Origin: Deroplatys truncata
Lineage: Eukaryota; Arthropoda; Insecta; Mantodea; Mantidae
Length of the DNA stretch: 64,000 nucleotides
Direction of reading: 5' to 3'
NCBI GenBank assembly: GCA_030765065.1
Contig: CM060981.1
Span: 230,895,152-230,959,151, forward strand
Part shown: positions 4,740-63,710 of the stretch, piece by piece
Position numbering within the stretch: position 1 is the stretch's first letter
Layout of the letters: the number at the start of each line of letters is the position of its first letter
The notes under the pieces: model-generated
The model's input: only the letters and a program-made list of their open reading frames with translations
The model's database searches: none
Told to the model about the DNA's origin: nothing
Position numbers and translations under genes: made by a program

Positions 4740-6330
4740 GTATGACCAATTTACAAAGAAGGTTCAAATACAATTGTTAGTAATTACAGACTGACGATAT
4801 TAACTTCTGTATGTAGCAAAGAATATGAGAAAATACTTATAATTAAAATAAAGTTTTTTTAAAATTAATAATATCTTTAATCACTTTCAACATGGATTTA
4901 GGAATAAATTATCAACTAACACAGTGGTAGCAGAATGTACATAAATTGTTGGAATTGAAAGACGTCCATAATAACACAGCAGGAATATACTTAGATCTCT
5001 CTCAAGCTTTTGACTCTGTATCCCTTGATCACCTAATCTCAAAATTAGAATATTATGTTTTTACAGGACAAATCAGTAAGTTATTAACAACATACCATAA
5101 AAACTGTGTATAATGTACAGAAATAAACTGAAAAAAAGGTGACACTGCATGCACAATAAAATCAGAGTATAACTTAGTAAAATCTGGGGTGTCACAAGGA
5201 TCAGTGATAGGATCTACACTTTTTGCTTTATATAAATAATTTACCTGAACCAAAAAATAGTAAGGTGACACCTTATGCGGACGATACAACTATCGTATGT
5301 TGGGGTGAAAACAGAGAAAACTTGGAAGAAAAAATGACAATTGACTGTTATCACAATATTTTTTAAATAATGGACTGAAGTTAATTAAAAAAAAAATTAC
5401 ATTTCAAAACGATAATCTAAATATAAACAAATAATATTCCTTTAGAACAGATAAGAAAAATTAAATTTTTGGACATTCATATAGAAGAAACTCTAACCTA
5501 CAGCACGTACATAGAAATGGTTTGTAGAAAAAAAATGAACTCGGGATTGCGCCTATTGAGGCAATTGGCAAAATATAGGGACACTAATATTCTTAGAACA
5601 ATATATTATGGCCTTATTTACCCACATTTTACATATGGTATTGAAATTTTGCGGGTAACAAGTACAACTAATACGAGCAGGCTATTAAAAATACAAAAAA
5701 GTGCATAAGAAGTATATACAACCTACGGTCTTGATAATCCTTTAGGGAAACATTTGTAACACAAAACATCCTAACCGTATTGACTAATTTTGAAGATTTA
5801 GAAGCTAGTAACAGTGATGTGTCATAATTTAAAATAAAGAGAGTTGAGGGTTGTTACACTACATCACTGTAATATTCTTACTTGAACGCATTTCGGGAGA
5901 CGGTTAAACGAGGATTAGATGAGGACATGCTGACGATGAGAACAAACCGTCTCCCGAAACGCGTTCAAGTAAGAATATTATAGTGATGTAGTGTAACAAC
6001 CCTCAACTCTCTTTATTTTAAATCCTAACCGTAGTTTCATTATATGTGTTCAAAATTATTATACTTGTTAAAGATAAAAGGCATTTTAACATGCTCAATA
6101 AAAACTGTCATAAATATGATACAAGGAGAGCTAATGATCACCATAGGGTGAGCACAAACAAAACTCAAAACTAAAAATGTTCCGTATAAAATAGGAGCAA
6201 TATTGCATAATAAATTACCATAAGTAATTAAGGATACCATAGATTCAAAATTTAAACCTGCACTAAAATCATTCCTAATAGAGAAATGCTTGTATGATAT
6301 CACTGAATTATAATGCACACGCAGGCAGGT
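4740..6330 (+). pseudogene. Non-LTR retrotransposon reverse transcriptase remnant
   Basis: Several frames together encode a reverse transcriptase with no long open frame. In order I read the AFDSV motif (LDLSQAFDSVSLDHL, near 4,990), the GVSQGS motif (SGVSQGSVIGSTLFALYINN, near 5,185), and the catalytic YADD (VTPYADDTT, near 5,275). The longest open piece is 5,469-5,708, a C-terminal connection region (RLLRQLAKYRDTNILRTIYY). The C-terminal tail continues after an insert, from 6,034 (ILTVVSLYVF) to about 6,330. This architecture suits a CR1/Jockey-like LINE; the clade is an inference. The 5' part is missing, as is usual for truncated LINE copies. Confidence 0.75.
5780..6021. mobile_element. 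Hairpin insert flanked by 12-bp direct repeats
   Basis: The LINE C-terminal region is interrupted here. The 12-mer atcctaaccgta occurs at 5,768-5,779 and again at 6,022-6,033, exactly at the edges. Most of the insert (5,827-6,023) is a near-perfect inverted repeat: arms 5,827-5,905 and 5,945-6,023, 79 bp each with two mismatches, around a 39-base loop. The first 47 bases of the insert lie outside the hairpin. No coding capacity is visible. The 12-bp duplication is longer than is typical for the common cut-and-paste families. Confidence 0.7.
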
Positions 6331-8577: not shown

Positions 8578-9552
8578 AGGGTGTTAGCATGCAATATACA
8601 AGGGCTGTTTGAAAAGTTAAAACATGGGGAAATAATGGAGATCTTAAAATTAGGTGATGTGATAGGAGTGATAGAGACATGGGTAGCAAAGGACATTCCA
8701 GTGGATGTGACAGATTTTTATTTTTATGGTAAAGCTGGGAAAAAAAAGAAAGAGGTCGTGCATCAGGTGGATTAGGGTTATTTGTTAGGAAGGCCTTGCA
8801 AGTTAAAGTGAAAGTGTGTAGTGAAAGAGGGAATAATTCAGTTTTGCAGTGTGTTTTAAAAGGGATGGGGGAGAAGCAAAATGTGTGTGTTGCAGTGGTG
8901 TATAACCCCCCCCCCCAAGTGCCTCGGAATTTTATAATCCCAATTTATTTAATTTGCTAAGACAAGATATGGAAGAATTATCAAATAGATACTTAAACAA
9001 TTGTTTTATCATATTGGGGGACTTTAATGCAAGGGTAGGGGAAAGTAAAATAAATGTAATGTATGTTGAGTATGAGTTAAGAGGGGAAGAGAATGAGATA
9101 GTAGGAAGGAGGAGTAAAGTCAAAGTTTTGAACTGTGAAGGTAAGAAGTTAATAGATTTTTGTGAGGAGCTCAACTTGATGATGTGTAATGGGGTGAAGG
9201 GGAAAGATGCCATGGGGAAATTTACCTTTGTGAATGAGAATGGTCAGAGTGTGGTAGACTATATGATATATTCAGCAGATTTGGACTCATACATCATGGA
9301 TTTTGAAGTGTTGAATTTAGTTTGTTCAAGTAATCATTTTCCAATAAGGGCAAAATTCCAAAGTACATATAAGGGAAGCTGCAAAGCAAGGCAACAAGAA
9401 GGAATTAAAATTTAAAGATATAAATGGAGGGAGGAGGAAGCAGAAGTATTTGTGAAGATATAGGGGGTATAAGGGAACCAAATGTAGATGAGATGGTGAA
9501 AGAAAACAGAATTGAAGAAGTTGTATTAAAATTAGAAATGATATTTGATGCA
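8578..9552 (+). pseudogene. LINE ORF2, AP-endonuclease domain
   Basis: The apurinic-type endonuclease domain that nicks target DNA for target-primed reverse transcription is readable in three frames. It starts with VLACNIQGLFEKLKHGEIME and an IETWV motif. It then breaks at an A run near 8,745 (shifting to KERGRASGGLGLFVRKAL) and again at a C run near 8,908-8,917. The last open piece, 8,954-9,415, contains GDFNARVG, SVVDYMIYS and SNHFP, the metal-binding and histidine motifs of the family; the last usually reads SDHFP, so here Asp is Asn. The frame stops at 9,413 and resumes in another frame (KWREEEAEVF) until the LTR-like insert at 9,559. Confidence 0.85.
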
Positions 9553-10688: not shown

Positions 10689-12900
10689 CAGGTTCAAGAA
10701 TGAAAATGAAAGAGGATTGGGTCAATAAGGAGGATGGATGGTATGATGAGGAATGTAGGGTGGCGAAACAAAGAGTTTTAAGGGAACTGAGAAAATGAAG
10801 GCAAACGGGAGATGAAAAGGAAAGAGAGGATTATATGGTTGAAAGGTGGAGGTACAAAAGTCTGTGGGAAGTAAAGAGGAGGGCATGGGGGCAGAAAATG
10901 GGTAAAAAATTGCATGAGGCAGCAGCACCTGCTAATGATTGTAAAACAATTTGGTCTTTAGTCAGGAGTATGTATAAGGCAAGAGTAAGAGAGAATAGCA
11001 TAGGTGCTAATGAATGGCTTAATTATTTAAAAAATCTTTTGGGAGCAGAGCAGCAAAAGAAGCAAACTATAGGGATAGTGGCAAATTGTGACTATATTGA
11101 GCAATTAGATAGTAGGATAGAAATAGGGGAAGTAAGAGATCAAATTACAAGACTAAAAAGAAACAAAGCAAGCGATATTGATGGTATACCAGATGACTTC
11201 TGGAAAGCATGGGGTCCAGACGAGAATAGATTGGAGATGCTAGTTAGGATACTAAATTCAATTTTTGAAGAGGGTATTGTACCTAGGAGTTGGAAAACGG
11301 CAATTGTGGTGCCAATATTCAAGAACAAAGGAGATGTGAATAACCCAGCAAACTATAGGGATATTAGTTTGTTAGCAGTGTTAAGAAAAATTTACACTGG
11401 AGTTCTGGCAGAAAGAGTGCAAATTTGGGCAGAGGAGCAGGGTAAGTTATCAGATTTCCAAGCAGGCTTTAGAAGAAATAAGAGAGTAATAGACAACATT
11501 TTTGTGATATCCACAATGGTTAGTAAATACTTAGCTAACAAAAGCGGAAGGTTGTACATGTTATTTGTGGACTTTGAAAAAGCGTTTGATATAATTAATA
11601 TGGAAGCTTTATGGGCTAAATTGAGCAAGATAGGAACGAGTAATAGGTTCATAGAAGCATTACAAAGGATATATGCAAAGAATGATTTTTGTATAAGGGT
11701 CTCAAATAATATAGTGACAAATGCTATTCCAAATAATATAAGGATGTAAGTTAAGTGCTATATTATTTAACTTATTCATTGATGATATTTTAGAGGCAAT
11801 TAAGATAGAAAATGGGCATCTTCCAATAATTGGAAATAAAGAAATACCGGGTTTGTTATTTGCGGATGATTTAGTTGTGGGATCAATAACTAAGGTCGGG
11901 TTAACTAAAGCAATCAGAGCAATAGAAAAGTTCTGTAATAAGTGGAGTCTCAGAATAAACACAAGGAAAACCAAAATAATGGTGTTTAAAAAGGGGAACA
12001 AGTTAAGGAAAGATGAAACATGATGGTGGCAAAGAAATGAAATCAAGGTGGTTAGGAAAATTGATTATTTAGGAGTAAGACTAAATAGTAATGGGAGATG
12101 GAATGAGCAAAAGAAAATGATACTAGCAAAAGGAAAACTGGCAATGAAAGTTATTAGAGCTTGCCTAGATAAAGTACCAGAGATACAAATAAAATAGCTG
12201 GACAGAATATATAGAGCAGTAGTAGAGGCTGGAATACTATATGGAGCTGAGATTTGGGGTTTAGAGGGAGGGTGGGAAAATGTAAACAAGGTTCACAGAA
12301 GTTTTTGTAAATTAATTTTGGGTCTACCAAGGGCTTCACCTAATGGTGTTGCCCAAATAGAGCTAGGGAGGTTTGGTAGCAAAGCAAAAATTGTGGAAAG
12401 TGCATTAAAATATTGGTGTAGAATTAAGGAATTGGAAAATAATAATATGTTAAAGCAGTGCTTAGAAGTGTAGTTAAAGCTCAACAAAGAGGATACTTGG
12501 TGTAAGTATATAGAAGGAATCTTGAATGAAATAGAGAATATTTGGAGAGAGGGATAGGCACTGGAGAAAGGGTTTTGGAGAGGGGTAAATTTGAGAATTG
12601 AAGATATTGAAAGACAAGAAATTTTAGGTAGCTTTAATTCCAAATCTTCTTTGTGTATATATGCAGACTTAAAAACGGTGTGGGAAAGAGAAAAATATGC
12701 TGATATATGTGACAGATCAGCACGAGAAGGCGTTGCATGGGCAAGGACAGGAGTGGTGATGCTAAAAGGCTTAGGGGGAAGTGAGATCCAGGAAAGTGTT
12801 TTTTATGTACTAGAAAGTATAATAATTATTGGCATTTAATTTTAGAATGTGAAGGAACTAAGGATTCGAGGGAAATGTAGGAATAAGGAGTAAGAAGAAA
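10689..12900 (+). pseudogene. LINE ORF2, reverse transcriptase and C-terminal region
   Basis: An open stretch at 10,835-11,749 encodes the fingers and palm start: KNKGDVNNPANYRDISLLAV (RT motif 1-2), QAGFRRNKRVIDNIF, and FVDFEKAFDIIN (first catalytic Asp). A frameshift near 11,745 then moves to GCKLSAILFNLFIDDI and the catalytic FADD at 11,859-11,870 (GLLFADDLVVG). The thumb and connection follow (KIDYLGVRLNSNGRW) with stops at about 12,020, 12,196, 12,471 and 12,555. A last open piece at 12,591-12,839 precedes a decayed cysteine/histidine motif near 12,800-12,860. There is no RNase H domain. It completes the APE-RT polyprotein begun at 8,578. Confidence 0.85.
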
Positions 12901-13971: not shown

Positions 13972-14815
13972 ACTTTCTCTACTACGTATAGTAAGTAGGG
14001 GAAGTATTGCATTCCACCCAAAAATTCGATACTGAGATTTCACCGGAAATACATGTTTTGAGACCCCCTGAATCCAAAAAAAGCATTTTTGGAAACATGT
14101 CCGTGTGTGTGTGTGTGTGGGTGTGTGAACAGCATAACTCAGAAACGAACAGTCGGATAAACACCAAACTTGGTATTTAGGTTCAGTATCTTCCAGAGAT
14201 GCGACACGAAGGTTTTCAAGAAAATCCCCCTACCCCAGACTACCCTTTACATGGAACATTTTTCGAAAATTTTAATTTTATCAAAAACGGCTCTAACGAT
14301 TTTGATTAAAATATCATATGTTTAAGATATTTTCATGACAAATAAAATGTATATCTTGAATTTTCTGGGAATGTCTCCAAAAGTATTCTTCATTGTGAAC
14401 GATTTTTTCATAACTGGTAAACCATAAGAGATAGACAAAATTTTACTACACAAAAAATGTAGATCGCGTTAAAATACACAATTTATGTCATATACATTTC
14501 TTTTGTTGAGTAAACCGTTTGCGAGATATTGCTTGTTATTCCCTTAAATTTTCCAATAATACTTTTTCTCAAATTCGTTATTCATTTTTTTGTCTTGGAC
14601 ATGCAAAGAGAATGGAATGCGCCACATAGCAACCAGCGTTAAAATATTTGGCTATCGCTTAAAACCTACCATATTCTCCTTGCATTTACAAGAAAATTAT
14701 CAATAAGATTCTCGATATCTCGATTAACATGAAGCATATGGAGAATAAGCGTTTGTAAAAATAGTTTGTACAAGAGTAGAGAAAGTCATGTGAGTGTAAC
14801 ACATCAGATTTTTTT
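13972..14815 (-). repeat. Repeat R copy 2
   Basis: A well-preserved copy in reverse orientation. On the plus strand it begins actttctctactacgtatag, has a GT microsatellite at about 14,101-14,126, and the landmark ggtttttcaagaaaatccccc region near 14,212. It ends with catgtgagtgtaacacatca and a T run near 14,815. The copies at 61.98 and 62.60 kb are very similar over hundreds of bases, so this subfamily is fairly young. No protein was recognised. Confidence 0.75.
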
Positions 14816-23351: not shown

Positions 23352-23625
23352 GGGACACTCTTTAACTGCTATGGTTTTTAGCGTCCCATTCCATATTGGG
23401 CGTGAAAGACCGGTAATTTTGCTCAGAGGCCTCTTTATCAGGCTTGAGGTTCTTTTACGTGCCGTAAATCTACGACATGGGACCACCGGCTTTACTTCCC
23501 TTCCGAAAGAAGCCATGCTAAGGATTTTTACACCTGAAAAAATCCATTGCCCTCCGCCGGGTTTGAACCCACGACCTTGGGAACTAGAGGCTAGCATGGT
23601 ACCACTAGTCCATAGCACTTCCACA
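23352..23625 (-). mobile_element. tRNA-derived SINE, family 1 (copy 1)
   Basis: On the minus strand the unit starts with a tRNA-like head: an A-box region in ctatggactagtggtaccat and a B box in cgtgggttcaaacc. A conserved body (ccggcggagggcaatgga, then cttcctttcggaagggaagt) and the shared 3' tail follow. The tail includes aagaggcctctgagcaaaat and cagtagttaaagag-like text. Three other copies share the tail (27.5, 50.5 and 58.8 kb). It lies within the Harbinger element. The minus-strand open frame across it (23,349-23,633) is not a gene. Confidence 0.75.
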
Positions 23626-31014: not shown

Positions 31015-32560
31015 AACCCTGTGGAGTGGTAGTCTCAGAGGTAAGGAGTACCGGGTGAGGGGTATCATTGGGAAGTTAGGGAGTGTGTAATAACAACTGT
31101 ACTAGGTTTTATAAAAACTAGGTGCTAGGCCATTTAATTAAAACAAGTTACAGTTGGAGGGTGGCCCCTGAAGTGCAAGAGCTTGGATATACATTACAAG
31201 GATTTTACCTAAAAACAGATCTAGCAGAACTTGAATCACCAGTAAAAATAGACTGTTAGGTCGGGGTTCGAGACCCAAACTTAACATATATGCATGTTAG
31301 TGAGACGATTGAGAGATTGATCCCCTGACCCACTTACATGGTCAGTAAAAGCTCTTACCGAGATAGTGTGTTCCAATTATGACATTTTCTGAAACTTGAT
31401 GCAACTTCCTGGCTGTGGCTTGAATCCCATTAAAGGATTGTTACAATACAATGACAGGGCATTTTCTGTTTGTACGAAACTTTATAAAACATTTATTGCA
31501 AAATGATAACTAAGAATGAATAGCTTTAATTGTAATTTTCTGGAGTTCATAAAATTTCAATGGGATAGGTGTTCTGCATAGCTTCACACAATTTTCTAAT
31601 GTCTTGTTGTCCAGCTGAAACTTTTAAGCAAAGGTTTGGCTCCAAATTTAACGTATTGCAGTGCCTATTTTTAGATATACCATGGATGAAAAGTTACTCT
31701 AAGATATTTTATTAAAAAATTTCTTATAAACTGATGGTGCAGACAGCTATATGAGGAAACACATTCACTCACTGCAACCAAAAGTCTGTCGAAGATGTTT
31801 TTCTAAAACTACATTTGAGGGTTTCATACCAGAACAATTCAATAATTTCTTGCCTTTCTGTTGTTGAAAATAAGTTTGGTCTCTTCTACTGGAGAAAAAC
31901 AATGTCAAATCCACAACTTGATGTTTTCAGGAAAATATTCAATCAAAGTCTTCGGCCATACGCAGACAATGCATTTTGATGATGCTGATCACAGAGCTGT
32001 GAAGCTGAAGTTCATTTCCTTCTGTATAATTTTCCAAAAATGGAAATGACAGTTGTCCATTTGCAAGTTATTTTTATTGCAAACTGTTTCTTGTTCAGAG
32101 TTTTCATTTTGTCATGAACCATGGAAGGTGTCTACATTCCAGACCTTTAGTCAGCTTATTTGCTAATGTGTAACATAATTCACATTTACCAAGCTTCAAC
32201 TTTTTGCTTCAGTTCTTACAAAAAAACTAGATAATTTTCTTTGGAAAGCATCTTACCTCATTGTAAAACAGAAGATATTTGTTCATGCTGCACATGCTTC
32301 TCATAACATTGTGAATAATCTGGAACTTAATTCTTTTGGTTTTGTGGTACTAACCATCTTCACTGCTTCTGTCAATCCTATTTTCATAAGTTTTGGAATG
32401 ATGAGATAACTTACACACTTTATGCTTCACTTCCCTAACTCTTGTTAGCATATGTTTCATGAACCTTTGTCCACATCATCAGCTAGTTGACTGAAGCAGT
32501 CAAGTGTATTTTATTAGTATAATTATCATAATTTACAGCATGGTTTAGGCCTAAAGGATT
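31015..32560. other. Unique AT-rich sequence
   Basis: No supportable gene. A 62-codon frame at 31,861-32,049 has no family resemblance. The B-box-like motif at 31,262 may be the remnant of an old SINE. Confidence 0.45.
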
Positions 32561-32835
32561 TGATTTCAGAGTAACTAAAAATATCTAGTGCTTTTTCAGT
32601 GTTTCTTTTCTCATAGGAGGTTTTATAGTAAAGTAGTTTACATGATAACCTCTATGGTTCCATTTTTTTTTATATTCTTCTATTAAATCATTTAAAGTTC
32701 TTATTTGCAATTATTCCCTTGTATCATTGCTGTATTTGTGACCTTTCAAACCTTAGCCTCCTACAGGTCTAAGTAACCTCATTCCTGCTGCTTCAGTTCT
32801 TTTTGCATCTTTTTGTTGAAGAGTCCAAGACTCTG
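32560..32835 (-). pseudogene. LINE reverse-transcriptase C-terminal fragment
   Basis: The minus strand from 32,830 downward reads KDAKRTEAAGMRLLRPVGG, a stop, then GHKYSNDTRE and IRTLNDLIEEYKKKWNHRGY. This matches in order the C-terminal region of RTE/BovB-like and related LINE polyproteins (an AAxMRxLRxxxG motif, then NxxIRxEL-like text, then a KWxxH motif). The rest of the element is absent. Confidence 0.6.
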
Positions 32836-32839
32836 AACC

Positions 32840-33830
32840 TTAAGTGAATGTCAGTCATTGTCTTGTAGAATATATATTGTGACTGTCCAATTTTCACTGC
32901 CACTGTTTTGATGTGATCTAGTTCAACTATTCACTATCATGGAAAGATAGAATCAGACAACTGAAAAATTCAATCCCATAGCCGGGATTTGAACCATGGA
33001 TCTCCCGGTCTCTGTCCGGTTGCTCTGACCACCGAGCTACCATGGCAACATGCTGGCACGACATTAAATTCTGTAACTGATTCACACTTTTTCCCGGTAA
33101 ATCACAAGATCTCAAATTGTATTTAGATGACATATCCCAATCGCGACTTAATGTTGTAAGTACTTGGCTACATAGTTTCAACCAGTTGGAGAATTTAATG
33201 TCGTGCCGACATGTTGCCAGCTAGCTCAGTGGTCAGAGCAACCGGATGGAGACTGGGAGATCTGTGGTTCAAATTCTGGCTCTGGCACTAAATTTTTCAG
33301 TCGTCTGATTCTACCTTTCCAACCTTGTCCAACACACGGCTTGTGTGGAAGAACAATTAATTCTATTCACTTAGTCTTCATTATCACTTCACTTTCTTTG
33401 TGATCTAGTGGTGTAATGAAATATGCACAGTGTAATCTCTTCTTCCAGACGGTTTACTCACAGTCAAACACATGACTTCTCCAATATCTTGCAGAAGCAG
33501 CACTCACTGCACGTCATAGCAATCATCACAAACTCATTTGGAGAACAGTACTTGATGTCACCTCAGAAATGCACTCACTAACTGATTGACTCAACTGACT
33601 AATCTGCAAACCTGCTGGATTATACAGCCTGTGGAAGCTTCCACAGAACATTCTAGATTGTTCTGAACTCAGTTCTGGAGATGGGGGAAAGAAACTTCCA
33701 GAAGATTCTGGTTATCTGATGATAGTGCTTCCTCTATTTATGCTGGGCAAGAGCACTACTTATCTTTGATAATCTCTGACTGCTCAACATAGATATTCTG
33801 ATAACCTTGGGACATAGCTGCTGCATCACA
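32840..33830 (-). mobile_element. LTR retroelement remnant 1 (LTR plus leader stub)
   Basis: 33,400-33,830 is homologous, with many differences, to 43,600-43,987. Shared text includes aaacacatgacttctccaat/aaacacaagacttcttcaat, gattctggttatctgatgat/gattctggttatctgctgat and ataaccttggg. The right edge ends tcaca in both, the complement of a TG-type LTR start, so the element reads on the minus strand. 32,905-32,930 and 33,364-33,400 match the sequence just left of the second copy (atctagttcaact, ttcattatcacttcact), showing that the SINE composite at 32,936-33,363 landed inside it. Confidence 0.5.
32936..33363 (+). mobile_element. Head-to-head SINE composite, locus 1
   Basis: Two tRNA-derived units face outward. 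The left reads on the minus strand (A box within tagctcggtggtcagagc, B box ggttcaaatcc, 3' end truncated). The right reads on the plus strand (A box tagctcagtggtcagagc, B box ggttcaaattc) and has a full tail: cagtcgtctgattctacctt, an acacacgg stem and gaacaattaatt. Between their heads lies a spacer of about 130 bp, and both sides share the ggcacgacattaaattct edge. The 9-mer ctattcact flanks the whole (32,927-32,935 and 33,363-33,371), the length expected of LINE-driven insertion. The upstream end is truncated. Confidence 0.7.
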
Positions 33831-33840
33831 ATTTGTATTA

Positions 33841-35125
33841 CGGAGGGTCGCCCCACTTAAGCTTGGACGATTTTGCTTATGTTTTTTTATGGCGAGATTC
33901 CCTTTCACCATCACCTATTGTGTTCAATGTGATTTCCACAGGCTTTAACCATGGCTCTGCAGTGCAATTTCCATTGAAGCGGGCTGCATCTAAGAACAGG
34001 AAGGGGGATGTTAGCCCGATGCTCCTGGAAGACTTTTCAGAATGCTTCAATTGTGGTGGGATGCTGAGAAGCAAGGCGCTGTTTCAGCAGACCAAATCCA
34101 CAAAAATCCATTGGCGAGGCATCTGGTGACTTTACAGGGATCCTTTTAAATGGTATGACATTGACAACCATTTCCATAGCTTTACAGTGGTAGTAATGCT
34201 GGGAAGACCAAGAGGTGTGACTGGATGCTTTATCCATGTGGATATAAACATTTGAGGCATCCTCACCATAGAACCGACGAATCTCTTCATAAAAAATTGG
34301 GTCCATAACATTCCTTTGATAGTAGGCTGCATTAACTTTTACATTGTTGGCAACTCTGTGAATGCGAGTTTGCCCCGAGAGCAAAAGCCTGCAACCACCA
34401 CGAATCCCTTGGAAAACTTTTCCTTGTTCTCCCGAATAAAGTTGGAGCGCCCCTTTTGGCCCACTTCATGGAAATAAATGACTTGGGGTTTTTTTTTGTG
34501 TCACCTAGATAAACCCATGCTTCATCTAAAGATACCACCCATTGCCACTTTTATAGAGTTTTCTTGCATTGGTGAAGCGTTCTCTGATGTGCTGCTCTTT
34601 CAAGGCGTGTCCATGTGCTTTATGTCGCCATTCTAGACCCAAATTGCTGTGTGTTATCTGATAGGCAGTCCCTTTGGATATTCCAATGCGGCTGGAAATG
34701 CTTCTTTGGGTTGGTGGGTTTTCTTGAGCCACTGTTGCACTCACCTTGGCTACTACAACTTAAGGTCGTATTGGTTGTGGCCTTTTTCTTGCTAGTTTTT
34801 TTGCACACTGAGCCTCAGGTGGGAATCCATTTTTATGCAGCTGTGTTATATGCCCCACATACGAGTCACTTATAGTAAGACCTTTTTGTTTGCACCTTTC
34901 CACTATCATTGAATGGCAGTAACTGGCATCGGAAAGCCCAACAATGTACCCCTGCCACAAGTCAGCGATTGTTGAAGCCATTACGAATAAACTTTGCCTC
35001 AGACTGGCCTAGCAGACAGCTGGCACTCACAGTGAGCTGATGCAATAATAAGCATAAGCAGTTTGACCAAGACAGAGTGGGAGTGTGATTCAAAGTCGTC
35101 CAAGCTTAAGTCAGGCAACCCGCCG
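33841..35125 (-). mobile_element. DD41D (rosa-like) mariner transposon
   Basis: Terminal inverted repeats of about 37 bp: left cggagggtcgccccacttaa and right, reverse complemented, cggcgggttgcctgacttaa, both continuing gcttggacga.tttg. TA flanks both ends (33,839-33,840 and 35,126-35,127). The 1,285-bp length is that of a full element. The transposase is on the minus strand and only mildly broken. Confidence 0.9.
34037..34981 (-). pseudogene. DD41D transposase pseudogene
   Basis: Four minus-strand pieces in order. 34,981-34,760 starts MASTIADLWQGYIVGLSDAS (first DNA-binding helix-turn-helix) and ends with a stop after RKRPQPIRP. 34,744-34,526 has the second DNA-binding part (RSISSRIGISKGTAYQITHS). 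34,538-34,332 has the first catalytic Asp in VSLDEAWVYL. 34,384-34,037 has the second in IHMDKASSHTS and the third in SPDASPMDFCGFGLL. I count exactly 41 residues between the second and third Asp, the signature of the rosa group. Three frame changes and a stop inactivate it. It would cut and paste the element at TA sites. Confidence 0.85.
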
Positions 35126-35127
35126 TA

Positions 35128-35620
35128 TATACTTAGTATCTTATTTTCACGTTTCAGATTAAAGTTACCGTGACATTTTGTGACCTTAAAATCCATTTTA
35201 CTTAGCAGAAAATGGGAAATTAATCCTGTTTCAACTGCATTGAAAGCATCATCAGAACCAAAGCTTTTTCAGAATTGATGGAAGAATTGTCATTTTCCAG
35301 CTTTCAATGTTTTTGTGTGTTACAGTTTAATTATCTGGGGCAGCAGATTCATGCTGCATACATTTATAAACTAAGTTATGTTCATTCCTGATCCTTTCAA
35401 TCCAGCCATTGGACGTTTTAAAATCAAGTTGCATCTTTTTTTGCTAAATGTGCCACCTGAGCTTTTACTGTCTAACGTCATGTTTGAAGCTTGTACTTGT
35501 GTAAACCACTTTAATAAAACTGCTTCTAACTCTGAAAGCTGACTTTGGCAAATAAGTTTTCTTTTAGCACCTTTTCCTTCTTCAAATGCAGTTTCAGTCA
35601 GTTAATGCATACTAACAACA
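35128..35620. other. Unique AT-rich sequence
   Basis: No supportable gene or repeat boundary. Confidence 0.45.
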
Positions 35621-36030
35621 GTGCTATTCCCAAAAAATTCAAGATGCACATTTTATTTTTCAAGTAAATATTTGTAATATATGGTATTTTAATCAAAACC
35701 TTTAGAGCCATTTTTAAGAAATAAAAAAATTTAGAAAAGTTTTCCATGTAAAGGGTAGTTGGGGTGGAGGGATTTTCATGAAAATCTTCATGTCACATCT
35801 TTGTAAGATGCTGAACTTAAATACCAAGTTTGGTATTTATCCAACTTTTCCTTTGTGAGTTATGCTGTTCAGACACACACTTACACAGCCTTTTTCTAAA
35901 AATGCTTTTTTTAAATTTTGGATTCAAGGGTCCTCAAAACATACATTTTCATTGAAATCTCAATATTGACTTTTTGGGTGGAATGCAATACCTTCTCTAC
36001 ATGCTATGTACATGGTAGAGAAAGTAAAAA
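35620..36030 (+). repeat. Repeat R copy 3
   Basis: Plus-orientation copy with the family landmarks in order: caagatgcacattttattt, atatggtattttaatcaaaa, ccatgtaaagggtagttggg, cttgtaagatgctgaactta-like text, gagttatgctgttcagacac, cctttttctaaaaatgcttt, ggaatgcaata and the terminal gtagagaaagtaaaaa. The microsatellite slot holds only a short CA run. Confidence 0.7.
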
Positions 36031-36188
36031 TATACTAAATGTATGCATAACTGTTGAGTTGACATGGCATATATGCATTTTAGCAAGAATGATGCCATCT
36101 TTACAAGGCAGGTGTTTAATCGTTATTAATATGAAAGAAGAAAGCTAGAGTTTTATATCAGTCTAAAATCTTTAATTTGCACATTTAG

Positions 36189-36346
36189 CTTGCAGCATTT
36201 ACCACTGGTTTTCAATGACTCAGCAAAGGGCAAAAGCATTTTACAAGAAAAGACTTTTAAGTAATCTATACAAGGTGCCCTTGAAACAATTAATAGAACT
36301 CACATTCCAATTTGCCTTCGTAGCTATATTATGTCATTGTTTCCAG
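36189..36346 (+). CDS. Host gene exon C candidate (two possible readings)
   Basis: Two acceptors seven bases apart (atttag|c at 36,189 and gcttgcag|c at 36,196) both restore the split codon left by exon B. From 36,189 the reading is LQHLPLVFNDSAKGKSILQE followed by KTF, ending at a donor ttaa|gtaatc (36,260). From 36,196 it is IYHWFSMTQQRAKAFYKKRL and continues 50 codons to the donor ccag|gtaacc at 36,346, ending in phase 0. The first has the more protein-like composition; the second is longer and connects in phase to 36,546. I cannot decide between them without transcript data. Confidence 0.35.
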
Positions 36347-36545
36347 GTAACCTTTATTTTATTCATGCCAATAAGAGCTAATTATGCACAATTTTAACTA
36401 ATGTTATAACATGTTCATAATGTTAGGATTGTGTAAATTTTATCTCTTCTTGTAGCTCCTTATGAAAAAAAAAACCTATTTCCAAAATTGTGTTTTAAAG
36501 ATATTTTGCTTTTTTTTTATCTTTTTTTTTTAATTTCTGTTACAG

Positions 36546-36671
36546 CTACTTGCACCATTTGGATGCAAACGTTTTTATTGCTCCATTTTGAACTGCTACA
36601 TCCTCGTCGTTTCTTCAACAGACCGCACAAAGTGTGAACAGCTGATTTTCAAGTCTACATATTTTCTGTGA
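36546..36671 (+). CDS. Possible further exon with stop
   Basis: A strong pyrimidine tract (tttttttttaatttctgttacag) precedes 36,546. A phase-0 reading gives 41 codons (LLAPFGCKRFYCSILNCYIL and on) to a stop at 36,669-36,671. The alternative phase gives a 14-codon tail ending FIAPF. Either could be a last exon of the host gene. No poly-A signal was confirmed, so the support is mainly the acceptor. Confidence 0.22.
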   Translation, partial: LLAPFGCKRFYCSILNCYILVVSSTDRTKCEQLIFKSTYFL

Positions 36672-36679
36672 TAATGTTG

Positions 36680-37724
36680 CACTTTTGCATTGTTATTGAT
36701 GTTAATGGCATATCAGAGTGGCCTCTACCTGTGCAAGTTAATTTTCTGTTTTAATTTAACGGTATAATAAGGTTATACAAATGACAGTGTGCTACATAAC
36801 TAATCTAGAGACAATGTGTTTTATTCTTTGTGGTTCAGTGAGAACAGTACAAGATACTGTAAGCAGGTGCACAACTGAGAGTTATGTAACTATGGGTACA
36901 ATGATTAGCATAGAAAAGAATAACTCGCCTAAATGTTCAAAGATATTTCTAAAATAATAGCAAAACTTTAGGTTTGTGACTCGCCACAAGTGTGCATGAA
37001 GAAAAGGTTATTCTCAGATAGGATTTCATTTATTGGCTGTAAGGACAAAGTGTGTTGATAACCTTATTTGAATTACTAAAACTGCTCATCCACCACACTA
37101 CAAGTCCATGCTTATGCTTTCATTGTGAGACAAATGTACACAGCGTTTGCATATATTGTTCTACAAGCACACAAAGTTCACTCACAGTGTGTTGATTCAC
37201 TGTTCAGGTCAGTTATATACTTTAACAAATGGAACCTCATTGGACTTAAATCTAGTGAGTATCGAGGCCATACCAACTGTGGTGACCAGGGTCATTAAAG
37301 CACAGACTTGTGATTGGGAGGTCTCCAGCTCAAATGTCGCCAGGACCATCCTCCTCAACTGAAGTTTTTTCCATAACTGACAAATGCTGGAAACGTACTG
37401 TAATCATACATCTGGAACATTTCCTTCCCAAATTTCCTTTCTCCAATTATCATTTCATTTCATATATGAGTGTCCAAGATGCTTTTTAATTTAGGTAATG
37501 AAATAAGTGGATGTTGTTCTTGATTTAATTATAGTTTTGAGTGCATTTGTGTGCCATTATGTACACTAAATCTATTTAGCTAATCTTTGTTAAATTACCT
37601 GTGCTTTGTAGAAGCACTGGAGCAAAATGAATAACATCAACTGAATACCATAGCAGCAGTTATGATAAACATAAACATATCTGAATGACAGAGTCACAAT
37701 AGAGTTAAATGCTTAACTTCCTGA
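36680..37724. other. Unique AT-rich sequence
   Basis: No supportable gene. Near 37,280-37,335 a tRNA-like string (attaaagcacagacttgtga ... ccagctcaaatg) may be a decayed SINE head. Confidence 0.4.
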
Positions 37725-37737
37725 CCTAACAGTTCAA

Positions 37738-38290
37738 TGGAATTAATTGTTCTTTCACACAAGCCGTGTGTTGGACACGGCTGGAAAGGTAGAATCAGAT
37801 GACTGAAAAATTCAATGCCATAGCCGGGATTTGAACCACGGATCTCCTGGTCTCCGTCCAGTTGCTCTAATCACTGAGCTACCATGGCAACATGTCGGCA
37901 CGCCATTTCCATTAATTGACCTAATAGTGGTTGAAACTAAAAGCCCAGGACTTAAGTACTTACAAAGAATGTAAGTCGCCATTGGGGTATGACATCTTAA
38001 TACAATTTGAGATCTCCTTGTGGTTTACCGGGAAAAATGCGAGTAGCTGGAGAATTAATTCCATTAATTGACCTAATAGTGGTTGAAACTAAAAGCCCGG
38101 GACTTAAGTACTTACAAAGAATGTAAGTCGCCTTTGGGGTATGACATCGTAATACAATTTGAGATCTCCTTGTGGTTTTACCAGGAAAAATGCGAGTCAG
38201 CTGGAGAACTAATGGCATGCCGGCATGTTGCCATGGTAGCTCAGTGGTTAGAGCAACCGGACGGAGACCAGGAGATCCGTGGTTCAAATC
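37738..38290 (-). mobile_element. Head-to-head SINE composite, locus 2
   Basis: This has the same architecture as 32,936-33,363. The left unit reads on the minus strand with A box tagctcagtgattagagc, B box ggttcaaatcc and a full tail ending in gaacaattaattcca. The right unit reads on the plus strand and stops within its B box at 38,290. The spacer holds two tandem copies of the 152-bp unit (starting at 37,909 and 38,061, with ccattaattgacc at each start). The 13-mer cctaacagttcaa flanks everything (37,725-37,737 and 38,291-38,303). Relative to the intact tail, the spacer polarity is the same as at locus 1. Confidence 0.75.
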
Positions 38291-38303
38291 CCTAACAGTT
38301 CAA

Positions 38304-39395
38304 GTTTCTATCTCCACTGCGGCAGTTGTATAGATACAGATTTTTTTCTGGATTTCTCTTATCCTGAAAATTGGAAAATTCTCAATTCCATATACCCAAA
38401 GCTCATTCTAGCATTCAATAATCACCACATCACTTCATATTCATTCTCTTTCTAGACCTAAGATGCTATAACGGACATTGAACTACTTAAAAAAAAGAAA
38501 AATAGAAAAATATAACATGCAATTTTAATATCTTAAACCTGTTCACCATCAGCAATTTAAAATATGCTTGACCACTGTACTCCAGACATATCAGTTTAAA
38601 TCCCACTTAACTCTACACGAGTTGGTTAAAATGCAAATTTCATTATTTTTAAAAATATTTGAATGAAAGAAAAAACACATATTTACTGAAATTATAACAA
38701 TAAGGGAAACCTACTAAACCTGATTGCAGTTATATTTGATATTAGCAAAAGAATTTTACCTTTCCTTTGCCCCAAAACCTTAGGTAGCTAATTTGGAATA
38801 ATATGCAGAGAAGATAGATGCTTCACTTCTGCTTGGACTGTACTCTGTGCAAGCTAGTTGAAGACACCAAGTGAGCAGCTAGAGTCTAATGACCATAACA
38901 GAGTACTAAGAATTTCCAGATGTGGTATCATTCATCCTTATTTACAGATGGAAAAGTACCTTATTCTGTTAACCTCCATGAAGCATAAAGAATGCCTTGC
39001 TTCACACAAATATAAGTAAAGACATGATGAATAGCTATCTCCCATTGTAACCTTAACACACTCTTGTGATTCAGAGTGAACAACAGTAAAGTTCAATGTG
39101 GTGTAAAGCCTATGTAACATTCATAAGGCAAAGAAATTCACATGCATACTTCCTTTATTTTCAATAAAATTACATCAACCTGTGGTGGATACATTTGATT
39201 ATGTTTGTGTTATCTTAAATTGTGCCACCTTTTAGCCTTTTATTACTTGTTTAATTACTCTCCAGCTAGCTAGTTTGTTGTGGAATTGAGCAAGTATCTC
39301 CTGGCAGGGAGTGTATCGGAAAGGAATCTGAAAAGATAACACTGAAGAGTTAGGCTTTAAGAATTTATTTCCTAACTCAATGTAATCGCCAACAA
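38304..39395. other. Unique AT-rich sequence
   Basis: No supportable gene, repeat or RNA. Confidence 0.45.
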
Positions 39396-47145: not shown

Positions 47146-47424
47146 AGTGAGTTCCTTTATTTCAAAATAACTTACGTGGAAGTTTGTTTCTATACAAAAA
47201 AATATCGGCATTTTGTTCTTTAGAAAGTAGTGATCCTAAAGCACTTCAATATAATGCCTATAAGCAGAAAAGTTTTTGTATAAGGGAAAAATCAATGGAG
47301 CTGAAATAATTCATGTATTTAGTAAATGCATCACACTTCAGGGAAACATAGACCAGCTGATATGTATTATTTTTCACACTAGTCAAGTGTAGGTTAAGGT
47401 TGGAAACATTTGCATCAGATTTAA

Positions 47425-47515
47425 AAAATCCATTGCCTCAACTGGAACTGGAACGAGAATCTTCTGCTTTTCATGCTGATGGTCTACCACTGAGCTGCCA
47501 CGATGAAACCTACAG
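47425..47515 (-). repeat. tRNA-like SINE head
   Basis: The reverse complement gives gtggcagctcagtggtagac and, downstream, ctcgttccagttcc. These are plausible A and B boxes in tRNA spacing. No matching 3' tail was found nearby, and stem pairing is poor, so a functional tRNA is unlikely. Confidence 0.4.
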
Positions 47516-58764: not shown

Positions 58765-59010
58765 ACCACTCTTTAACTGCTGTGGTTCTTAGCTCTCGTT
58801 CTATATTGAGCATGAAAGACTGGTTTGTTTGCTCAGAGTCTTGAGGCTCTCTTACGTGCCGTAAATATAAGCTTTACTTTCCTTCTGAAGGAAGCTATCT
58901 AAGGATTTTTACGCCCGAAAAAAAGTCCATCGCCCTCCGCCGGGTTTAAAGTCGTGACCTCAGGAAGTAGAGGCTACCACGGTACTCACTACACCATGGA
59001 GGAAGACATT
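58765..59010 (-). mobile_element. tRNA-derived SINE, family 1 (copy 3)
   Basis: The reverse complement begins with a tRNA-like head (ccatggtgtagtgagtaccg, then a damaged B box cacgactttaaacc). It has the body ccggcggagggcgatggact and the tail ending cacagcagttaaagagtgg. The B box is mutated, so its Pol III promoter is probably dead. Confidence 0.7.
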
Positions 59011-62601: not shown

Positions 62602-63710
62602 TATTCATTTTTACTTTCTCTACTACGTATAGTAAGTAGGGGAAGTATTGTATTCCACCCAAAATTTCGATACCGAGATTTCACCGGAAATACATGTTTT
62701 GAGACTCACTGAATCCAAAAAAAGCATTTTTGGAAACATGTCCGTGTGTGTCTGTCTGTGTGTCTGTGTGTCTGTGAACAGCATAACTCAAAAACGAAGA
62801 GTCGGATAAACACCAAACTTGGTATTTAGGTTCAGTATCTTTCAGAGATGCGACACGAAGGTTTTCAAGAAAATCCCCCCACCCCAGACTACCCTTTACA
62901 TGGAACATTTTTCGAAAATTTTAATTTTCTCAAAAACGGCTCTAACGATTTGGATTAAAATATCATATGTTTAAGATATTGTCATGACAAATAAAATGTA
63001 TATCTCGAATTTTCTGGGAATGTCTCCAAAAGTATTCTTCATTATGAACGACTTTTTCATAACTGGTAAACCATAAGAGATAGACAAAATTTTACTACAC
63101 GAAAAATGTAGATCGCGTTAAAATACACAATTTATGTCATATACATTTCTTTTGTTGAGTGAACCGTTTGCGAGATATTGCTTGTTATTCCCTTAAATTT
63201 TCCAATACTTATACTTTTTCTCAAATTCGTTATTCATTTTTTTGTCCTGGACATGCAAAAAGAATGGAATGCGCCACATAGCAACCAGCGTTAAAATATT
63301 TGACTATCGCTTAAAACCTACCATATTCCCCTTGCAGCTACAAGAAAATTATCAATAAGATTGACATCTTGATATCTCCATTAACATGAAGCATATGGAG
63401 AATAAGCGTTTGTAAAAATAGTGTGTACAAGAGTAGAGAAAGTCATGTGAGTGTAACACATCAGATTTTTTTATGTCCTGGACATGCAAAGAGAATGGAA
63501 TGCGCCACATAGCAACCAGCGTTAAAATATTTGACTATCGCTTAAAACTTACCATATTCCCCTTGCATCTACAAGAAAATTATCAATAAGATTGACATCT
63601 CGATATCTCGATTAACATGAAGCATATGGAGATTAAGCGTTTGTAAAAATAGTTTGTACAAGAGTAGAGAAAGTCATGTGAGTGTAACACATCAGAATTT
63701 TTTTTTGTTT
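62602..63710 (-). repeat. Repeat R copy 6 with duplicated tail
   Basis: A complete copy abuts copy 5 in the same orientation. Its last 231-bp block, from tgtcctggacatgc (63,243) to the catgtgagtgtaacacatca plus T run, is present twice in tandem (second unit from 63,474 to about 63,710). Each block ends in a T run. The minus-strand frame 62,681-62,908 parallels those of copies 4 and 5. Confidence 0.8.

Follow-up and report, generated by a model that had tools for sequence, protein, structure and literature searches.

Sampled insertions of a tRNA-derived repeat unit in the mantis Deroplatys truncata: mostly inverted and mostly inside one target-site duplication

How does a repeat come to consist of two outward-facing, tRNA-like arms around a shared spacer? 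This question is raised by two loci in a 64,000-nucleotide stretch of the genome of the mantis Deroplatys truncata (GCA_030765065.1, contig CM060981.1, forward-strand positions 230,895,152 to 230,959,151; hereafter, the window). An earlier note on this DNA had described, at 32936-33363 (locus 1) and 37738-38290 (locus 2), two arms derived from transfer RNA (tRNA) and facing outward from a related spacer, and had proposed that each such composite was copied as a single RNA. Sequence comparison and repeat searches bore out the layout at both loci; copying as a single RNA was not borne out. Most sampled copies are two outward-facing pieces inside one target-site duplication, and we consider it very probable that every insertion creates its composite anew through reverse transcription primed from both ends (twin priming), the products being joined, with multimeric or circular RNA as the probable template.

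A single 318-bp unit, here called U, accounts for all parts of both loci: spacer (U1-149), link (U150-168), tRNA-related part (U169-243), and tail (U244-318), the tail region U276-318 ending AATTAATTCC. About 168 bp of spacer and link thus precede the tRNA-related part, and five consecutive T come after it, at U247-251. The spacer is present once at locus 1 and twice at locus 2 (spacing 152 bp, 94-96% alike), a direct repeat surrounds each whole assembly (9 bp at locus 1, 13 bp at locus 2), and at both loci one tail is intact, ending GAACAATTAATT, with the spacer in the same polarity relative to it, all as the earlier note had it. That note also called the opposite arm truncated; random truncation does not hold generally, since the short arm stops at one place in 65 of the 83 inverted insertions described below. 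The short arm of locus 1 ends at this preferred site, whereas that of locus 2 does not. Matches to the Rfam tRNA model were obtained for three of the four arms (two above the cut-off of 29 bits, one below), with a highest score of 51.5 bits, and the two units of another copy, L084, each scored 53.5 bits, so the tRNA fold expected of a tRNA-derived short interspersed nuclear element (SINE) is present; ARAGORN found no tRNA gene in the window. In the assembly (4.29 Gb, 818 contigs), a 27-mer from the tail had 4,686 exact matches and a 47-mer from the spacer 1,053, while the reversed-sequence controls of both had none; a third pattern, inside the tRNA-related part, had 62 (37 + 25). The unit therefore shows the dispersal, high copy number, and flanking duplications of a tRNA-derived SINE.

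To determine how often copies are inverted, we examined several sets. When locus 1 was used as the query, 40 copies were scored (from 9,528 candidates), and in all of the other 39 the tRNA part appears first in antisense and then in sense orientation; with locus 2 as the query, 40 of 7,275 candidates were scored. Because these early sets were picked by likeness to the window copies, a tail sample and a spacer sample were drawn independently of that likeness. The tail sample comprised the first 30 of the 4,686 matches, all on contig C1, and resolved into 23 distinct insertions, of which 18 were inverted, three were direct and multi-unit (L084, L094, L096), and two were single (L079, L088). The script's own count for this sample was 22 insertions, 17 of them inverted, to which L081 was added from its parsed alignment; L079, L080, L104, and L105 were counted as one insertion. 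These four are the same truncated insertion (from U194), which lies inside another interspersed repeat and was copied with it. The spacer sample comprised 10 of the first 19 of the 1,053 matches, nine having been left out because their places were already sampled, had appeared among the tail matches, or coincided with that of one taken. According to the earlier note, most spacer copies occurring without flanking inverted SINEs would speak against a composite unit; searched by the spacer alone and with the flanks recorded, seven of these 10 exact 47-mer places were inverted (L108, L111, L112, L113, L114, L115, and the old complex L116), and L109, L110, and L117 were not.

For the combined counts, 11 loci that duplicate another (L060, L072, L073, L076, L080, L082, L083, L097, L099, L104, L105) were left out beforehand, 95 clusters were parsed, and seven clusters with no usable 3' end (in L015, L018, L029, L040, L085, L096, L102) were dropped, leaving 88 insertions. 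Eighty-three of these were inverted, most of them picked by likeness to the window copies, and five were direct. Outer duplications scored at least 8 in 68 of the 88 insertions, with lengths of 8-15 bp and a mode of 12-14 bp, in agreement with the earlier claim that the composite is one insertion with one outer duplication; the duplication listed for L084 is probably element sequence. Among 65 composites from the searches with the two loci as queries, 48 reached this score, far above chance: the mean was 2.7 (maximum 7) in 20 shuffles in which right flanks were exchanged. An inverted 5' segment and a direct 3' segment thus lie inside one duplication, the arrangement known from twin priming. 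Within an insertion, the arms abut or lie at most 23 nt apart (87 joins, in clusters that allow gaps of up to 40 bp, which limits the distance between the arms of one insertion), leaving little room for target DNA between them.

Pairs of this kind could conceivably arise from two chance SINE insertions, or from later inversion or recombination between neighboring copies, and the abundance of the family, with its thousands of exact tail matches, would favor such encounters. However, a single duplication surrounds the whole, and among the 100 + 100 tail and spacer matches listed, opposite-strand neighbors within 700 bp were -/+ in 15 cases (14 distinct insertions, one being in both lists) and +/- in none, counts that contradict chance pairing. 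As a control we used a repeat in the window (pattern 23537-23602, tRNA-derived by eye) with 1,336 exact matches; none of the 100 matches listed lay less than 4 kb apart, so pairs within 700 bp were absent among them, and neither density nor assembly readily explains the paired arms. We therefore regard chance pairing as extremely unlikely. The positions 23537-23602 and 58920-58985 are tRNA-like fragments of this separate repeat, from which the control pattern was taken.

If the composite were copied whole, its inner join should recur from copy to copy. Most sampled insertions instead read as the reverse complement of U[x..~276] (arm A) followed by U[y..318] (arm B), with x and y varying by copy, and when the stretch between the tRNA parts was aligned and divided between arms A and B, the inner joins fell at 57 distinct positions in 62 copies. 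Even in a subgroup of close sequence relatives (L054, L055, L064, L069, L070), the join differed in every copy. A short A and a long B portion were found in L012, L026, L027, and L031, the reverse in most other copies, and the joins of the tail sample were scattered over U (e.g., -U[246-276]/+U[225-318] in L103, -U[1-276]/+U[260-318] in L087, and -U[112-276]/+U[193-318] in L092). The outer 5' end, in contrast, was clustered, at U268-285 in 65 of 83 inverted insertions. Such diversity of joins, together with a 5' end at one internal site, argues that the composite is not one RNA copied whole. This bears directly on the possibility that a SINE-spacer-SINE composite gives rise to a hairpin transcript that is retrotransposed in its entirety, the joins varying because reverse transcriptase skips parts of the loop. 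That scheme agrees with the fixed 5' end and the unchanging polarity of the spacer seen in most of the first 39 copies, and with loop lengths near 175 in many copies, although the queries favored that length. Against it stand the 57 distinct joins, the copies with short A and long B portions, and the scatter in the tail sample; L050, L077, and the direct multimers L084, L094, and L096 do not fit such an RNA, and internal promoters that face outward should hardly transcribe the composite. We consider a copied hairpin RNA quite improbable. A transcript of a composite could plausibly fold into a long hairpin.

The outer ends point to two preferred starting sites. In the tail sample, the inverted arm ended at U271-276 in 12 of 18 cases, the others ending at 264, 263, 243, 209, 188, and 152. 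The motif TTCCA occurs only twice in the circularized unit, at U271 and U315, which are the preferred end of the inverted arm and the usual 3' end. The direct half mostly ended at U318, by choice in the tail sample, and at U316-318 in five of the seven inverted insertions of the spacer sample; it ran beyond U318 in L015, L018, L102, and L112 and stopped at U278 in L029. No inverted insertion with U318 at both ends was found among the parsed insertions, including the spacer sample, and one (L029) had the U276 region at both ends. Letters of the unit continued past U318 in 77 of 88 cases and past U274 in 55 of 65, where about 32% would be expected; this corresponds to the microhomology of twin priming at both outer junctions, although continuing letters outside the duplication may be element and not target. 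In the 53 good duplications, A was found at -3, -2, and -1 in 64, 81, and 47% and T at 0, +1, and +2 in 43, 66, and 58%. These duplications begin with C or A and end with G or T, and the target is nearly a mirror image, with AAA before and TTT after, as expected if both strands are nicked in approximately TG^TTT and both 3' ends anneal at UUCCA. A predicted stem-loop at about U269-305 of the working unit covers one TTCCA site and ends before the other, while the L084 unit folds differently there; our guess is that one enzyme seated at this stem-loop might serve both sites.

Two further explanations are weighed by these ends. In a template jump, the sense RNA would be copied from U318, and the enzyme would then jump to an antisense RNA of the unit and run to its 5' end at U274, a course that would likewise give joins at arbitrary points, a constant 5' end, and a single duplication around the whole. 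The mirrored motif at the second nick and the letters continuing past U274 point instead to priming there, and since arm A starts elsewhere in 18 of the 83 inverted insertions, antisense starts would be needed at many places; we judge a template jump to be improbable. A foldback or MITE-like (miniature inverted-repeat transposable element) DNA transposon, carrying tRNA sequence by chance in its inverted termini, would account for the long inverted arms and the duplication, and the commonest form does read TGGAA...TTCCA at both ends. Such an element should have symmetric ends and a fixed duplication length, whereas here the commonest ends are asymmetric (U276 and U318), the joins arbitrary, and the duplications 8-15 bp long, and L094 and L096 are direct insertions that share the 3' end, so that this origin is scarcely credible.

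At least 20 nt of U were present in both halves of 75 of the 83 inverted insertions, so on a one-unit RNA the inverted segment would not lie upstream of the direct one, the arrangement of twin priming in its strict form; on a multimer it could. The strict form fits L050, L090, L093, and L101. The two parts of L050 begin at adjoining positions, the direct one at U275 and the inverted one at U276; more units follow behind, 13 letters at the inner join are unaligned, and we read the sequence as strict twin priming on a tandem RNA. One half sums to more than one unit in 14 loci, two of which (L048, at locus 2 of the window, and L049) do so through repeated spacers. Units also occur head to tail, as in other small tandem elements such as retrozymes: same-strand neighbors 309-319 bp apart were found in 23 cases (10 tail, 13 spacer) among the 100 + 100 matches listed, and L084 is a full head-to-tail pair. 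The self-cleaving hammerhead of retrozymes was lacking, in that the core CTGANGA is absent from both strands of U, and no Rfam ribozyme was found in window positions 32500-38800 or in L084. The predicted RNA fold of one L084 unit had a z of -4.95 relative to 100 shuffles, which we do not use as proof of function. Since the preferred site U271-275 is inside the unit, the direct half can run on past U318, and the halves usually share a stretch, the template would be a tandem multimer of units, a circular RNA, or several RNAs; the DNA would fit an RNA of two or more units, a circular one, or a pair of RNAs from one source.

A common source for both halves is also suggested by their likeness. After correction for the overall divergence of each copy, the halves of one insertion were more alike than expected (residual -0.019, permutation standard deviation 0.0018, lower in 64 of 73), and remained so with CpG-like sites masked (-0.016, lower in 54 of 69). 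The uncorrected arm distances gave a weaker signal (0.117 within versus 0.135 between insertions). Direct units were near-identical within L084 (1 difference in 317), L049 (0-1 of 140-152), L096, and L081. In L049 (C15:84353245-84356716), four spacer copies with a spacing of about 156 bp and 0-1 differences stand in one insertion flanked by CCTTAATAAGAAAAG, an array that looks like repeated passes over a spacer-only template. An array of another kind was seen at G000:C1:114232029-114232839, where tail 27-mers recur every 98 bp on one strand (at least eight matches, one gap of 196), satellite-like and grown from the tail region. An old inverted repeat inside U, between the end of the spacer and the start of the tail, scored 17.5 against a maximum of 18.0 in 300 shuffles and is not claimed.

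Taken together, insertion by two-ended reverse transcription would proceed as follows. Both strands of the target would be nicked in a similar motif, approximately 5'-TG^TTT, and the two target 3' ends would anneal at the UUCCA motifs U271-275 and U315-1 of the unit RNA. Both 3' ends of the staggered cut would then prime reverse transcription of multimeric, circular, or more than one unit RNA, and the two complementary DNAs, having stopped at arbitrary points, would be joined end to end; reverse transcriptase and endonuclease would be supplied by a long interspersed nuclear element (LINE) or a similar element. In a bolder form, which we put forward tentatively and think less likely than not to hold in full, the working RNA, which would carry a tRNA domain but no ribozyme, would be a circle of 318 nt or an endless multimer, each 3' end of a symmetric double cut would dock on one of its only two UUCCA sites, and inversion would be the normal mode of insertion.

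Several observations weigh against insertion by twin priming, the mechanism of which is read from finished insertions. Twenty of the 88 insertions have no good duplication, and the tail and spacer samples are small and both come from contig C1. Overlap at the inner joins was not clearly above simulation (Mann-Whitney P = 0.81; at least 2 nt in 38 of 87 versus 80 of 300), and many of these joins carry unaligned letters (up to 23). At the outer junctions, the extra letters may be microhomology or a start 1-2 bases further on, which the script does not separate. In four sets (nine copies) the join position is common to the copies, which leaves room for rare copying of finished composites. Direct units differ considerably in L027 (30/270), L077 (17/153), L016 (15/179), and L053 (11/174), which age may or may not explain, and the two halves could owe their similarity to gene conversion between the arms.

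The features of the two window loci are collected in Table 1. At locus 1, the outer end of arm A lies at the UUCCA site U271-275, and arms A and B overlap by 2 nt at the inner join; at locus 2, the outer end of arm A is at a rarer place than U271-276, and the match extends 2 bases into the duplication.

Table 1. Positions of the parts of the two composite insertions within the window
Feature	Position	Strand	Basis
Left target-site duplication, locus 1, CTATTCACT	32927..32935		Read in sequence, refound by script
Arm A, locus 1: reverse complement of U18-275 (tail part, tRNA, link, spacer)	32940..33184	-	L001 1505-1749
tRNA-related part, arm A, locus 1	32974..33046	-	Rfam RF00005, 32.9 bits, cut-off 29
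Arm B, locus 1: U136-317 (spacer end, link, tRNA, full tail, 3' end AATTAATTC)	33183..33363	+	L001 1748-1928
tRNA-related part, arm B, locus 1	33216..33287	+	Rfam RF00005, 25.2 bits, below cut-off
Right target-site duplication, locus 1, CTATTCACT	33363..33371		Sequence and script
Left target-site duplication, locus 2, CCTAACAGTTCAA	37725..37737		Sequence and script
Arm B, locus 2: U150-318, full tail, element runs leftward	37739..37907	-	L048
tRNA-related part, arm B, locus 2	37816..37888	-	Rfam RF00005, 51.5 bits, above cut-off 29
Extra spacer copy of arm A, locus 2 (U1-148)	37911..38056	+	94-96% like next copy
Arm A, locus 2: U1 to ~U229 (spacer, link, tRNA to B box)	38063..38290	+	L048
Right target-site duplication, locus 2, CCTAACAGTTCAA	38291..38303		Sequence and script

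The letters ATCA at 32936-32939, which separate arm A of locus 1 from its left duplication, are explained by neither unit nor target. Rfam matches to MIR7533, MIR4371, and mir-31 on locus 1 fell well short of the respective cut-offs and are due to the long hairpin. No phage record matched locus 2, and viral contigs searched with two patterns gave no exact match. Between the two loci, at 33839-35127, lies a degenerate DNA transposon; its terminal inverted repeats measure 37 bp and are 86% complementary, and we take its transposase fragments to be mariner-like; Pfam gave no match for 34037-34465, inside it. Elsewhere in the window, a tRNA-like fragment at 47372-47500 is 68% like the U family, a near-perfect palindrome occupies 5827-6023 (79-nt arms, 97% complementary, 39 nt apart), and LINE remains with endonuclease (PF14529) and reverse transcriptase (PF00078) matches were found at 8906-9415 and 10799-11749. 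Two tandem copies of a 231-bp unit (95% alike) at 63237-63705 are related to 14585-14815. TTAGG, the repeat of many insects and other arthropods, was present on two of the four contig ends inspected.

The priming of the second DNA strand during insertion by LINE machinery is still poorly understood. A SINE with a majority of inverted copies in two small samples, whose starts fall mostly at two sequence-defined sites, bears on this question, and its thousands of copies offer statistics on second-strand cutting, priming, and joining within one genome. The many natural hairpin loci that it produces could also matter for small-RNA silencing. In the literature searched, the coverage of which omits most subscription journals, we found no earlier description of an inverted or mostly twin-primed SINE, nor of the words of this unit. 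Inverted and tandem copies also occur among Penelope-like elements; no result here supports Penelope-type mobilization. Twin priming itself was reportedly described for L1 by Ostertag and Kazazian in 2001.

5'-inverted L1 copies are usually explained by twin priming (PMC2912911, PMC12016303), and the insertions of U resemble them in having an inverted 5' and a direct 3' part within one duplication, both DNA ends as probable primers, and microhomology at the junctions. In L1, however, one end primes at the 3' end of the RNA and the other inside the same RNA (PMC2912911), whereas here the same part of U is mostly present in both halves. The inverted share is 18.4% for germline L1 (PMC12016303), compared with 18 of 23 sampled insertions here, where the second priming site is strongly preferred. 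SINEs or SINE-like elements can be inverted by the same kind of event, but very rarely: 0.02% of human germline Alu (one element; 5,936 studied) and none of 322 SVA in one study (PMC12016303), and one Alu and four of 477 SVA in another (PMC2912911), in contrast to the majority in the samples here. Why L1 and Alu differ in twin priming is called unclear in PMC12016303, and the available passages of a paper on Sauria SINEs (PMC13295347) hold nothing on inversion or twin priming. In chimeras of small nuclear RNA and L1 (PMC4476161), the second priming likewise returns to a single spot in a small, structured RNA: four truncations of U5 fall in one single-stranded loop. The number there is seven of 30 chimeras, and the other half is L1, not a family paired with itself as here.

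Metazoan retrozymes (PMC7761336), of the small tandem elements with circular RNA that we met the nearest to U, share with it a small, tandem, non-coding unit (~150-300 bp versus 318), a non-autonomous nature, and the absence of long terminal repeats. Circular RNA occurs in them and is proposed here; unlike U, for which a tRNA domain and no ribozyme were found, they are not described as forming inverted insertions in the passages available. Sbg9, a dimeric tRNA SINE of the German cockroach (PMC9191728), likewise has two SINE units per insertion and duplications of 10-15 bp, but it joins two families (Sbg1 and Sbg8) and is not described there, in the text available, as inverted, whereas here the same unit is inverted and nearly every examined copy has its own join. 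SINEs and twin priming are both of known kinds; the surprising part is the frequency of inversion together with the preferred second site.

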